From positions 1 to 16,758 of the forward strand of contig JAHFMA010000006.1 in the NCBI GenBank assembly GCA_023264475.1: a stretch of DNA of 16,758 nt. Direction: 5' to 3'. The stretch is from Candidatus Parcubacteria bacterium (GTDB lineage Bacteria; Patescibacteriota; Minisyncoccia; Phycocordibacterales; PALSA-1337). Positions 10,148 through 14,086 of this stretch are shown one piece after another (position 1 is the first letter of the stretch; each line of letters starts with the position of its first letter). The position numbers and the translations under genes were made by a program. The notes beneath the pieces were generated by a model, which ran no database searches, had not been told where the DNA came from, and saw nothing but the letters and a program-made list of their open reading frames with translations.

Positions 10148-11170
10148 ATGCTCAACCCAGAATTCAAACTCAATCCGAACCTCTTCCATGACGACGTGGA
10201 GCAATTGCCTATCCGCAAAGGCTTTGGCGAAGGCCTGCTCAAGGCCGCCGAAATAGACAAAAGGGTAGTCGGTCTCTGCGCGGACCTCACCGAGTCCACG
10301 CACATGCTCCCGTTCAAACAGAAATTCCCTGAGCGCTTCATCGAGATCGGCATTGCGGAGCAGAATCTCGCCGGCATCGCCTCCGGTATGGCCGCTATGG
10401 GCAAGATCCCGTTCATTACCTCATATGCCATGTTCTCGCCAGGCAGGAATTGGGAGCAGATCCGCACGACCATCGCCTATAATGACCGACCTGTGAAGAT
10501 CGCCGGCTCGCACGCCGGAGTATCTGTTGGCCCAGACGGCGGCACGCACCAAGCCATCGAGGATATCGCTATCACCCGCGTCATCCCACGCATGGTCGTG
10601 ATCTCGCCCTGTGACGCCATCGAAGCTCGCAAGGCCACCATGGCCGCCGCCAAGACCGACCAGCCGACCTACATCCGCCTCGCTCGCGAGAAGACACCGG
10701 TCATCACTACGGAGGACACACCATTCGAGATCGGCCGTGCTCAACTCGTCTATATGCCTGAGGCCAAGAAGCATCCCAAAGGCACCAATGGCCATCTCTA
10801 CGATGCCGCGATCATCGCGACTGGCGCCTTGCTCCACAAGGCCATCAAAGCCGCTCACGCCCTCTCTTCTTCAGGCAAGAAGGTGGCGGTGCTCAATCTA
10901 GCCACGGTGAAACCGCTCGACGAGCAGGCCGTCATCCGCCTGGCCACCGAGGCCGGTGCTATCGTGACCGTCGAGGAGCATCAGATCGCCGGCGGCATGG
11001 GCTCAGCCGTAGCTGAATGCCTAGCCGCTCATCGCCCGGTGCCCATCGAATTCATCGGCGTCAGAGACCAGTTCGGCCAATCCGGCAAGCCTGATGAGCT
11101 CATCGAGCTCTATAGCATGGGCGAATCACACATCAAGGAGGCTTTGCAGAGGGTCATGACCAGGAAATAG
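10148..11170 (+). CDS. Transketolase, C-terminal (pyrimidine-binding) subunit
   Basis: 340 residues, covering the pyrimidine-binding and C-terminal domains of transketolase. The TPP-activating glutamate is Glu71 in EIGIAEQN (66-73); SHAGVSVGPDGGTHQAIED (121-139, with His134) is the substrate region; the C-terminal domain has IATGALLHKA and the VEEHQIAGGMGSAV stretch. Start codon follows the previous stop with zero gap (TAAATG), with no Shine-Dalgarno sequence, so translation is presumably coupled and gives equal subunit amounts. Active sites would form at the interface of the two products, as in the fused enzyme. No terminator hairpin is evident just after the stop; the next promoter starts 28 nt later. 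Confidence 0.94.
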   Translation: MLNPEFKLNPNLFHDDVEQLPIRKGFGEGLLKAAEIDKRVVGLCADLTESTHMLPFKQKFPERFIEIGIAEQNLAGIASGMAAMGKIPFITSYAMFSPGRNWEQIRTTIAYNDRPVKIAGSHAGVSVGPDGGTHQAIEDIAITRVIPRMVVISPCDAIEARKATMAAAKTDQPTYIRLAREKTPVITTEDTPFEIGRAQLVYMPEAKKHPKGTNGHLYDAAIIATGALLHKAIKAAHALSSSGKKVAVLNLATVKPLDEQAVIRLATEAGAIVTVEEHQIAGGMGSAVAECLAAHRPVPIEFIGVRDQFGQSGKPDELIELYSMGESHIKEALQRVMTRK

Positions 11171-11442: not shown

Positions 11443-11652
11443 ATGAGCGGCACAAAGACAGCGACAACGGACAAGGTCGGATCGGCGCCAAGCGCAGGAT
11501 CCTCGATTGTGAGTGAGAGCCATGGCTTCACAGGCATCCCGTGGTGCTCGGATAACTCTTCTTCGCCTCCCGGCCTTATGCCGAGAGCCGGAGAGATGGA
11601 GCAGCCAATGGAACATCTGAATGATCCCGAAGTCCGCCTAGCCTCGGACTGA
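11443..11652 (+). CDS. Small Ser/Pro-rich hypothetical protein
   Basis: 69 residues, no family recognised; rich in Ser, Thr, Gly, Pro and Glu, with little predicted hydrophobic core, so probably disordered. No signal peptide, membrane segment or Cys pattern (single Cys in PWCSDN). TAGGAG lies 9 nt before the ATG, one of the few Shine-Dalgarno sequences here. A strong terminator begins 6 nt after the stop (11659-11690). The gene sits downstream of the leader/attenuator and has no better promoter of its own, so it is the natural target of that control. It might instead be a non-coding RNA with a chance ORF. Confidence 0.5.
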   Translation: MSGTKTATTDKVGSAPSAGSSIVSESHGFTGIPWCSDNSSSPPGLMPRAGEMEQPMEHLNDPEVRLASD

Positions 11653-11658
11653 TAGCCC

Positions 11659-11690
11659 AGCCGTCATCCCATAGTGGATGACGGCTTTTT
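11659..11690 (+). terminator. Strong intrinsic terminator
   Basis: Perfect 11-bp stem (11659-11669 with 11676-11686), 6-nt loop, five-T tract at 11686-11690. Ends the 11233-11652 unit just before the inverted-repeat element. Confidence 0.92.
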
Positions 11691-11746
11691 GCTTATTGTA
11701 AGACTCTACTCTTAAGGGGTGGTAGTTGTGGCTAGGTTTTTGCGAG

Positions 11747-11784
11747 CGTTCAAACTTCACGAAAATTTTCGTGATATTTGAACG
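11747..11784. repeat. 38-bp palindrome
   Basis: CGTTCAAA (11747-11754), 3 unpaired bases, CACGAAAA joined to TTTTCGTG (11758-11773), 3 unpaired bases, TTTGAACG (11777-11784). The arms are perfect apart from the symmetric 3/3 mismatch. It lacks a real loop, which favours a protein-binding site or cruciform over an RNA hairpin. GTTCAAAC recurs in direct orientation at 11955-11962. Confidence 0.8.
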
Positions 11785-11797
11785 TTGGCGGAGAAGT

Positions 11798-11977
11798 ATG
11801 ACTAATTCTCGCCAAAAACCTCATGTACACAATTCAAAAAGCATTGCCTCATTACCCTTGTGGCATATGACTCGTTTGGGACGACAAAATATTGTGCGAC
11901 ACAAAACAGGCCTTCAGGATTTTTGCAGGAATGAGGTGTTCCATTTGTGTCAGAGTTCAAACAAAATCTCGCGCTAG
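11798..11977 (+). CDS. Doubtful small ORF inside the palindromic element
   Basis: 59 codons from an ATG at 11798 to TAG at 11975-11977, ending exactly at the right inner inverted repeat. GGAG at 11790-11793 precedes the ATG by 4 nt. The product is basic and His/Cys-containing (MTNSRQKPHVHNSKS start) with no recognisable motif or regular hydrophobic pattern. The palindrome 11747-11784 would lie just upstream as a possible operator. Could equally be chance in a non-coding element. Confidence 0.2.
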   Translation: MTNSRQKPHVHNSKSIASLPLWHMTRLGRQNIVRHKTGLQDFCRNEVFHLCQSSNKISR

Positions 11978-12007
11978 CCACCCCAAAAGGAAAAGTCTTA
12001 CCACATA

Positions 12008-12016
12008 TGTTATAGT
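12008..12016 (+). promoter_or_regulatory. Extended -10 promoter of uvrB
   Basis: TG at 12008-12009 and TATAGT at 12011-12016, 30 nt before the uvrB ATG, directly abutting the right end of the inverted-repeat element. Its complement reads TATAAC on the minus strand, so leftward transcription into the element is also conceivable. No LexA-type operator was noticed. Confidence 0.5.
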
Positions 12017-12046
12017 CGGGTTCTCAATCAACCACCACTCACTACC

Positions 12047-14086
12047 ATGAGCATTTTTAAGCTTTCTACCAAGTTCGCGCCTGCCGGAGATCAGCCCAAA
12101 GCCATCGAAGGGCTCATTTCTGGACTCAAGAAAGGCCTCTCGCGCCAGACTCTCCTCGGCGTGACCGGATCCGGCAAGACATTCACGGCAGCCAATGTCA
12201 TCACTCAGATCGGCAAGCCGACCCTCGTCATCGCCCACAACAAGACCCTCGCCGCCCAGCTCGCCCAGGAGTACCGCGAATTCTTCCCGGACAATGCCGT
12301 GCATTATTTCGTCTCTTACTACGATTACTACCAGCCTGAGGCATATATCCCTTCTAGCGATACCTATATCGAGAAGGAAGCCATGATCAACGAAGAGATT
12401 GAGCGCCTCCGCCATGCTTCTACTCAGGCCCTCCTCACCAGGAAGGACGTCATCATCGTGGCGTCCGTCTCGTGCATATACGGCCTCGGCAGTCCCGAGC
12501 AGTACCAGAAGGTCAATCTCAAGCTCGCCGTCGGCATGGAGCTCTCCCGCGCCGAGCTCATCCGCAGGCTCATCGACATCCATTTCGAACGCACCAATGC
12601 CGACCTCAATTCCGGCCAATTCCGTGCGACAGGCAATACCCTAGAGGTCATGCCCGTCAACGAGCGCACGGTCTATCGTTTCGAATACGATGGTCCCAAG
12701 GTGAGCGCCATCATCGAGATCGACCCGGTGAGCCGCAGCTTGCGTGGCAACCATGACACTATATTCATTTTCCCGGCAAAGCACTTCATCGCAAGCGACG
12801 AACAGAATGCCGCGGCCCTAGGCACCATCAAGGCCGAGCTCGAAAGCCGCCTCAAGGAGCTAGAGAAAGCCGGCAAGGTCCTCGAAGCCGAGCGCCTCAA
12901 GCGCCGCGTCAAATATGACCTCGCTATGATCCGCGAGATCGGCTACACCAACGGCATCGAGAACTATTCCCGACATTTCAGCGGCCATATGCCTGGTCAG
13001 CCGCCGGACACCTTGCTGTCATATTTCCCGCACAAGGCCGACGGCTCGCCTGACTTCCTGACTGTCATCGACGAATCCCACGTCACCGTGCCTCAGCTCA
13101 ACGGCATGTTCGCCGGCGATCAGAGCCGCAAAGAGACCCTGGTCGAGCACGGCTTCCGCCTGCCCAGCGCCAAGGACAACCGTCCGCTCAAATTCGACGA
13201 GTTCATCGAGCGCGTCGGGGCCATCATATTCACATCCGCTACTCCTGGCCCGTACGAGAAGAAGGTGAGCGACAGGACTGTCGAGCAGGTCATCCGCCCG
13301 ACTGGCCTCGTAGACCCGCAGGTGGAAATCCGTCCGATCATCGAGAAGGGCAAATACAAAGGCCAGATCTTCGACTTCATCGAGGAAGCAGAGAAGACGA
13401 TTAAGAAGGGCGATCGCATCCTAGCCACCACTCTCACCAAGAAGATGGCCGAGGACCTGTCCGAATTCCTCAAGGAGAAGAAGATCAAGGCCGCTTATCT
13501 CCATAGCGACGTGAAGACCATCGAGCGCATCACCATCCTCACCGATTTCCGCAAAGGGAAGTACGACATCCTTGTGGGCGTCAACCTCCTCCGTGAGGGC
13601 CTCGACCTGCCAGAAGTCTCGCTCATCGGCATTCTCGACGCCGACAAGGAGGGCTTCCTACGCTCCGAGACCGCCCTCATCCAGACCATCGGCCGTGCCG
13701 CTCGCAATGCCGCCGGTCGTGTCATCCTCTATGCCGACAATCTGACCGGATCCATGGACAATGCCATCCGCGAGACTGACCGCCGCCGCAAGATCCAGGT
13801 GGCCTATAACAAGGAGCATGGCATCACTCCCACAACTATCCTCAAGGCTATCCACGACATCACCGACCAGCTCCGTAGCGAGCATGACAAGGCGGTCTAT
13901 GAGATGGTCCGGATCGACGAGAAAATGGCTGAATCAGACCCCAAGAAGCTCTTGCGCATGAAGGAAGAGGCGATGGCTGAGGCCGTGAAGGCGCTGGATT
14001 TCGAGACGGCGGCTCTGATACGAGATGAGATGTTCAAGTTGCAGGAGAAGATGGGGTGGGGAGTAAAAGTTCCAAAATCAAGATAA
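12047..14086 (+). CDS. uvrB: UvrABC excinuclease subunit B
   Basis: 679 residues, full length for UvrB, the damage-verifying helicase of nucleotide excision repair. Order of motifs: Walker A GVTGSGKT (38-45, Lys44); the DNA-inserting beta-hairpin YYDYYQPEAYIP (91-102); UvrA-interaction domain to about 250; Walker B IDESH (341-345); SAT motif FTSATPGPYE; motif V VNLLREGLDLPEVSLIGILD; motif VI QTIGRAARN; and the C-terminal UVR domain (KLLRMKEEAMAEAVKALDFE and onward), which contacts UvrC. All key residues seem intact. It stands alone here, without uvrA or uvrC. Its GC-rich codon use matches the metabolic genes and contrasts with the ParA gene that follows 94 nt later. No terminator hairpin was found after it. 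Confidence 0.98.
   Translation: MSIFKLSTKFAPAGDQPKAIEGLISGLKKGLSRQTLLGVTGSGKTFTAANVITQIGKPTLVIAHNKTLAAQLAQEYREFFPDNAVHYFVSYYDYYQPEAYIPSSDTYIEKEAMINEEIERLRHASTQALLTRKDVIIVASVSCIYGLGSPEQYQKVNLKLAVGMELSRAELIRRLIDIHFERTNADLNSGQFRATGNTLEVMPVNERTVYRFEYDGPKVSAIIEIDPVSRSLRGNHDTIFIFPAKHFIASDEQNAAALGTIKAELESRLKELEKAGKVLEAERLKRRVKYDLAMIREIGYTNGIENYSRHFSGHMPGQPPDTLLSYFPHKADGSPDFLTVIDESHVTVPQLNGMFAGDQSRKETLVEHGFRLPSAKDNRPLKFDEFIERVGAIIFTSATPGPYEKKVSDRTVEQVIRPTGLVDPQVEIRPIIEKGKYKGQIFDFIEEAEKTIKKGDRILATTLTKKMAEDLSEFLKEKKIKAAYLHSDVKTIERITILTDFRKGKYDILVGVNLLREGLDLPEVSLIGILDADKEGFLRSETALIQTIGRAARNAAGRVILYADNLTGSMDNAIRETDRRRKIQVAYNKEHGITPTTILKAIHDITDQLRSEHDKAVYEMVRIDEKMAESDPKKLLRMKEEAMAEAVKALDFETAALIRDEMFKLQEKMGWGVKVPKSR

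Follow-up and report, generated by a model that had tools for sequence, protein, structure and literature searches.

The window, a 16,758-nt stretch of a Candidatus Parcubacteria contig, contains between the transketolase and uvrB genes an element of about 307 nt. It is probably the worn remnant of a small transposable element, non-autonomous and of the MITE/foldback kind, and is called MITE-like here rather than a proven MITE. An earlier note on this DNA had offered two readings of the element, a non-autonomous mobile element or a large structured RNA. The mobile reading is supported by three further intergenic copies beside unrelated genes, by related terminal repeats, and by congeners in which transketolase and uvrB adjoin with almost no spacer. 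The large-RNA reading is not supported as stated, since the fold of the window copy is weakly kept in the other copies and the closing stem beats shuffled sequence in the window copy only.

The element and its surroundings in the window

The features of the window copy and its neighbors are collected in Table 1. The earlier note had placed the element at 11698..12001; it is bounded by matching repeats as described, but its right end reaches 12004, with GTGGTAAGACTTTTCC, read on the minus strand, occupying 11989-12004. All of the arms named in that note are present, and the pairs are nested. From the outside inwards they are GTAAGACT (11698) with AGTCTTAC (11994), GGGGTGG (11716) with CCACCCC (11978), the 8-bp pair GTGGCTAG (11728) with CTAGCCAC (11974), of which the CTAG pair of the note is a part, GCGAG (11742) with CTCGC (11968), ACACAA (11827) with TTGTGT (11945), and CCTCATT (11847) with AATGAGG (11930). 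The judgment that chance would hardly produce such an arrangement is borne out, as a collinear long-range 8-bp pair plus 7-bp pair appears in 7 of 1000 dinucleotide shuffles of 11653-12046, and the gapped match between the left and right terminal repeats is equaled by none of 500 mononucleotide shuffles. The element is also lower in GC than its surroundings, as had been remarked (42%, against 55% for the window).

Table 1 Features of the window copy and its neighbors (window coordinates).
Feature	Position	Strand	Basis or remark
Whole element	11698..12004	- (core orientation)	BLAST to three other places in the genome, terminal pattern and alignments; left boundary within a few bases
Left terminal inverted repeat, GTAAGACT...GGGGTGG	11698..11722	+	3' end of the element in core orientation; arms located
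Right terminal inverted repeat, GTGGTAAGACTTTTCC...GGGGTGG	11978..12004	-	19 of 20 bases in common with the C69 3' end
Inner arm GTGGCTAG	11728..11735		Partner at 11974-11981
Inner arm CTAGCCAC	11974..11981		Partner at 11728-11735
Long near-perfect hairpin	11747..11784		Also in C69 and C2, absent from C74
138-nt non-coding core	11786..11923	-	Common to all four copies; alignment A3, stop and codon-position test, model R1
Small hairpin at core end	11788..11812	-	C74 stem built of partly other bases
Intrinsic-terminator-like hairpin	11659..11686	+	Just upstream of the element and outside it; the single one found
Transketolase C-terminal part gene, upstream	10148..11170	+	Pfam Transket_pyr, Transketolase_C
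uvrB, downstream gene	12047..14086	+	Pfam UvrB

The element had further been described as lying between a strong terminator and the uvrB promoter. A terminator-like hairpin does precede it, ending 11 nt before the element starts, but no sigma-70-like promoter was found in 11600-12060; the right end lies about 40 nt from uvrB, and no promoter-like or terminator-like site was found inside the element. Between the transketolase gene and the terminator, at 11443-11652, lies an open frame of 69 aa for which Pfam gives no match at E ≤ 1e-5. Elsewhere in the window, two proteins (52-441 and 622-1284) have C-terminal tails, VPEPSTYGLIGAVGLLGIVAIRRK and VPEASTYGLVGAVALLGIVALRRK, which we take to be PEP-CTERM-like; such tails are, to our knowledge, unusual for so small a genome.

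Three further copies and the terminal repeats

The assembly comprises 463,317 bases in 75 contigs and is about 70% complete. The BLASTN search of the own genome that the earlier note had proposed, run with 11690-12010 as query, found three further, diverged copies of the window element (C29), so that the contrary outcome, no copies elsewhere, did not hold. They lie at C69:3743-3968, C2:3944-4164, and C74:6988-7101, matching at 88%, 86%, and 85% over the aligned parts, with E-values of 1.9e-77, 1.0e-68, and 1.7e-30. The remaining matches in the assembly are reversed hairpins or end repeats of these copies, together with one 17-nt match (E 0.84). Queries with the C74 and C2 copies returned the same places and, beyond them, only 14-17-nt matches (E 0.76 and 1.4), and a profile of the 138-nt core (R1) found exactly four copies both at E ≤ 0.1 and at E ≤ 0.0003, in searches run with stricter filters.

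All four copies are intergenic and sit among unrelated genes: transketolase-uvrB (C29), rnc-smc (C69), murJ-lepA (C2), and dprA-topA (C74). By position, the core is sense to its neighbors in C69 and antisense in C29, C2, and C74. The presumed ends of C69, C2, and C74 coincide with the stop codon of rnc, murJ, and dprA, their respective upstream genes, or lie next to it, and the window copy follows a terminator; all four therefore seem to be placed just after a transcription unit ends, a pattern that with four copies and worn ends is only suggestive.

The core is gap-free in the four copies, with 73-87% pairwise identity. Outside it the copies share less: sequence 5' of the core is common to C29 and C2, the long hairpin on the 3' side to C29, C69, and C2, and the 3' part to C29 and C69, and C74 has little in common with the others. 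A protein-coding origin of the core was rejected, as none of the six frames stays free of stops in more than two of the copies and the variable columns are spread evenly over codon positions (14/18/17). Along the core, the variable columns are clustered beyond chance (variance test, 0.0014; 0.024 when the end hairpin is left out), a hint that the core has been under some constraint and not only drifting.

The terminal inverted repeats start with GTGGTA-N2-ACTTTTCC, which is recognizable at several ends. By BLAST, the window 5' (right) end agrees with the C69 3' end at 19 of 20 bases, and it pairs with that end at -59.4 kcal/mol, against -51.9 kcal/mol with its own 3' end; better pairing across copies is expected of terminal repeats with one origin. 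Additionally, the C2 5' end aligns with the C69 3' end in inverted order (73% over 33 nt), and the C74 and C69 3' ends align at 67% over 67 nt (E 5e-4). Among the seven ends other than the window right end, similarity to the latter is weak at C69 5' (21 of 500 shuffles as good) and C2 5' (18 of 500), and is significant at neither C2 3' (147), C74 5' (299), nor C74 3' (88). The end pattern GTGGTANNACTTTTCC, allowing up to two mismatches, is found three times in the assembly, at ends of C29, C69, and C2; as a reversed control also gives three matches, the number of matches is uninformative and only their places are informative. In our reading, these are decaying terminal repeats that had one origin, with a conserved middle between them.

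No further place with the end pattern (≤ 2 mismatches), as a parent transposon would show, was found in the 70%-complete assembly. The one transposase family searched, Y1 (PF01797), likewise has no match in it. Inspection by eye showed no target-site duplication at the boundaries of C29, C2, and C74, which are partly uncertain in copies of this age; only at C69 and C74 does a TA lie beside the 3' end, also by eye, and it is not duplicated.

Relatives, corresponding spacers in congeners, and a foldback family in the same order

By BLAST at E ≤ 0.001, none of 99 relatives (33 of them of the genus) matches the element, the own assembly aside. The core profile matches in 36 of 146 other relatives' genomes at E ≤ 0.1 and in 2 of 382 other genomes of the class at E ≤ 0.0003, the latter two (L074 and L075) lying within long reading frames. 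Nineteen loci with weak matches (L022-L040) were inspected for perfect inverted repeats: in L022 a 22-bp pair closes around the match and two 19-bp hairpins lie inside, and the other inspected loci have pairs of at most 14 bp. As L023 and L024 score as strongly as L022 yet lack such a build, E-values near 0.002 are unreliable here, and the profile matches in relatives other than L022 are taken for chance. The core pattern is absent from the genome-contig and viral-contig collections scanned, from which the nearest records were possibly left out, and phage and plasmid collections give no match at E ≤ 0.01. These searches thus give no convincing copy outside the own assembly.

Two of the four sites were compared with those of congeners. 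In three of 14 congener loci inspected (G022, G006, and G033), uvrB starts about 0-50 nt after transketolase; the other uvrB loci have different genes or frames upstream. For the C74 site, 26 of 29 fetched loci were examined, one of them our own, and in 15 congeners the upstream frame was judged by eye from its end to be dprA. With lengths taken up to a motif that lies 6 nt within topA, the dprA-topA spacer is 47-107 nt in 11 of these 15, against 334 nt here, and 189, 334, 367, and 368 nt in the remaining four, so a long spacer at this site is not peculiar to this genome. Two of these four spacers contain foldback sequences (L105 1176-1509 in G008, with a 14-bp stem, and L108 1321-1509 in G026, with a 13-bp stem) that by local alignment resemble neither each other nor the window element; the G008 foldback is single-copy, and its local alignment to the element is equaled by 110 to 290 of 300 shuffles. 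Another stretch of the G026 locus, L108 304-420, matches unrelated Rfam models, miRNAs among them, on both strands, always short of the gathering score, and is probably another long hairpin.

Compared as whole spacers by global alignment, C74 and G008 are matched by 2 and 0 of 300 shuffles under two scorings when the promoter end is left out, and by 9 and 15 of 300 when it is included (0 of 300 with a rougher shuffle); by local alignment, the figures are 203 and 57 of 300 without the promoter end, and 0 and 0 with it. The G017 and G011 spacers score like that of G008 (1 and 0 of 100), and the other copies of the element are equaled by 12 to 98 of 100. On these alignments, C74 might also be an old shared spacer that has drifted.

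The best profile match outside the own assembly at E ≤ 0.1 is L022 in the order-mate G063, at 17.5 bits and an E-value of 0.0017 for one genome, which translates to about 0.25 expected in 147. The element at this locus (1296-1583) looks intergenic by its surroundings, is closed by a perfect repeat of 22 bp, folds with a z of -16.4, and is enlarged by two GC-rich perfect 19-bp hairpins. A BLAST search with it in G063 (E ≤ 0.001) returned 73 matching stretches including itself, at about 20 further places. These define a foldback family (L022, L083-L101) of about 130 nt, or about 135 nt in nine aligned copies, with the form CCCCCACRCC...GGYGTGGGGG and a covarying closing stem of 20 bp. In the alignment (A4), which holds nine of 11 extracted copies, L022 and L094 being left out as enlarged or cut, 98% of cells are paired and 22 cells are doubly changed, against 8.9 in shuffles, a number that none of 500 shuffles reaches; further pair types are not raised (252 of 500). 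Covarying foldback elements therefore exist in this order. Near two Y1-family transposase genes of the same genome (L102 and L103) lie perfect palindromes, TATCGAGGTTCAACCTCGATA and TTGGAAGCCGAGCTTCCAAGT, which we take to be reminiscent of REP-RAYT systems.

The G063 family is like our own in being folded, in many copies, and, in L022, intergenic by its surroundings, and in both families TATTTTGTCG is followed by a T run after about 40-42 nt; it is unlike our own in closing stem, length, and ends. When 10 G063 copies were compared with our four, no more than 10 of 200 shuffles scored as well in 24 of the 40 pairs, the comparisons being non-independent, and the three alignments looked at have one common register. 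Of the 12 G063 loci given, however, the profile R1 matches L022 only, and the structured model of the G063 family finds no match in our copies and gives 0 bits at the matching register. Kinship between the two families, as judged from these comparisons, is unproven. It is conceivable, at quite low probability, that both branched from a single mobile structured nucleic acid that has long been in the order, encodes no protein, and has kept a core of TATTTTGTCG and the T run some 40 nt on while exchanging its arms freely.

Alternative readings and origin of the family

Both strands of the window copy fold better than 100 of 100 shuffles (z of -4.4 and -5.5), and C69 and C2 fold better than most of theirs (0 of 100 and 5 of 200 as good). 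These figures speak for a dispersed family of structured small RNAs with a common core, a hairpin on the 3' side, and variable arms, acting alone or in cis on the gene behind, which we regard as possible but rather unlikely. If one folded RNA had been selected, the own ends of each copy should pair, and this is true beyond shuffles of the window copy only: its end-to-end closing stem is equaled by 1 of 300 mononucleotide shuffles, against 111, 191, and 91 of 300 in C69, C2, and C74, and the C74 stretch as a whole folds no better than shuffled sequence (48 of 100). When the window fold is laid over the four copies, 76% of cells are paired, and its true register beats all six slid ones, the fold having been derived from one of the rows; 14 pairs are changed on both sides, slightly above the 9.7 of shuffles (reached by 30 of 500). 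The partly rebuilt small hairpin in C74 and the clustering of conserved core columns also favor an RNA. The inner pair CCTCATT/AATGAGG (helix 9) is poorly kept in the other copies (57% of cells paired). The covariation for one large RNA is weak. Against a small-RNA family stand, in addition, the missing promoter-like and terminator-like sites and the core strand, sense to the neighbors in one copy and antisense in three. A known structured RNA was rejected as well: Rfam 15 gives no match at gathering score in the window, and on the contigs of the other copies the matches that reach it are tRNAs and RNase P, none of them at a copy. A permissive search of 11600-12060 returned one match over the terminator and the left end, at 23.5 bits against a gathering score of 55. 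A retron-like or group II element, brought to mind by the long hairpin and closing stem, was set aside, as the other copies do not retain that stem.

Of the mobile readings, the one that we favor is the MITE-like one. Bacterial MITEs are short and non-coding, have terminal inverted repeats, occur in several intergenic copies, and are lower in GC than their surroundings. The element resembles them in all of these respects, its copies being dispersed; it differs in that the copies are few and strongly diverged and, as far as the three inspected copies and the 70%-complete assembly go, in that neither a target-site duplication nor a parent transposon was seen. An element of the REPIN/ERIC type, a single-stranded-DNA foldback that a single-strand transposase would copy by way of the hairpin and without cut-and-paste, would agree with the palindromic build, the intergenic places, and the lack of a visible target-site duplication, and with the order-mate G063, which has both two Y1 genes with nearby palindromes and many foldback elements. 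Terminal repeats of more than 20 bases are unlike short REP sequences, and the assembled part of this genome has no Y1 match, so we consider this origin unlikely. REPINs are described (PMC3116915) as REP doublets tied to REP-associated tyrosine transposases, extragenic and with predicted single-strand folds; our element shares the inverted arrangement, the extragenic position, and the predicted one-strand fold, and differs from the REPIN/RAYT pairing described there in that the assembly has no Y1 gene. The RU-1, RU-2, and RU-3 repeats of enterobacteria are described (PMC2759123) as small intergenic units of 103-168 bp with inverted repeats, stable stem-loops, TA ends, and TA duplications, and are called MITE-like. 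The element is similarly small and intergenic, with inverted repeats and stem-loops, and is unlike them in that no TA target duplication was seen here. Finally, the arrangement in the window could be chance and the four similar stretches old duplications without mobility, as a core only 73-87% alike and the little that C74 shares beyond it would allow; the BLAST E-values of the three copies, the terminal repeats in inverted order between copies, and the rarity of the nested pairs among shuffles make this highly improbable.

For the favored MITE-like element, a transposase acting in trans would have recognized the ends and spread it, and insertions behind gene ends would have been tolerated. 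The copies would then have diverged through point changes and through loss or replacement of arms. The mobilizing enzyme may have been lost, or may be encoded in the missing 30% of the genome. Strand folding would follow from the mirrored ends, and use as an RNA is not required.

The family is of note for its lineage but of an already familiar, MITE-like kind; the literature matches listed include none on such elements in this group, which is no proof of absence. Genomes this small and streamlined would be expected to lose parasitic DNA. Worn foldback elements in the spacers of such a genome, together with a commoner family in an order-mate, would mean that miniature mobile DNA nevertheless persists in them, and the four-copy family is a marker for finding the enzyme that mobilizes it.
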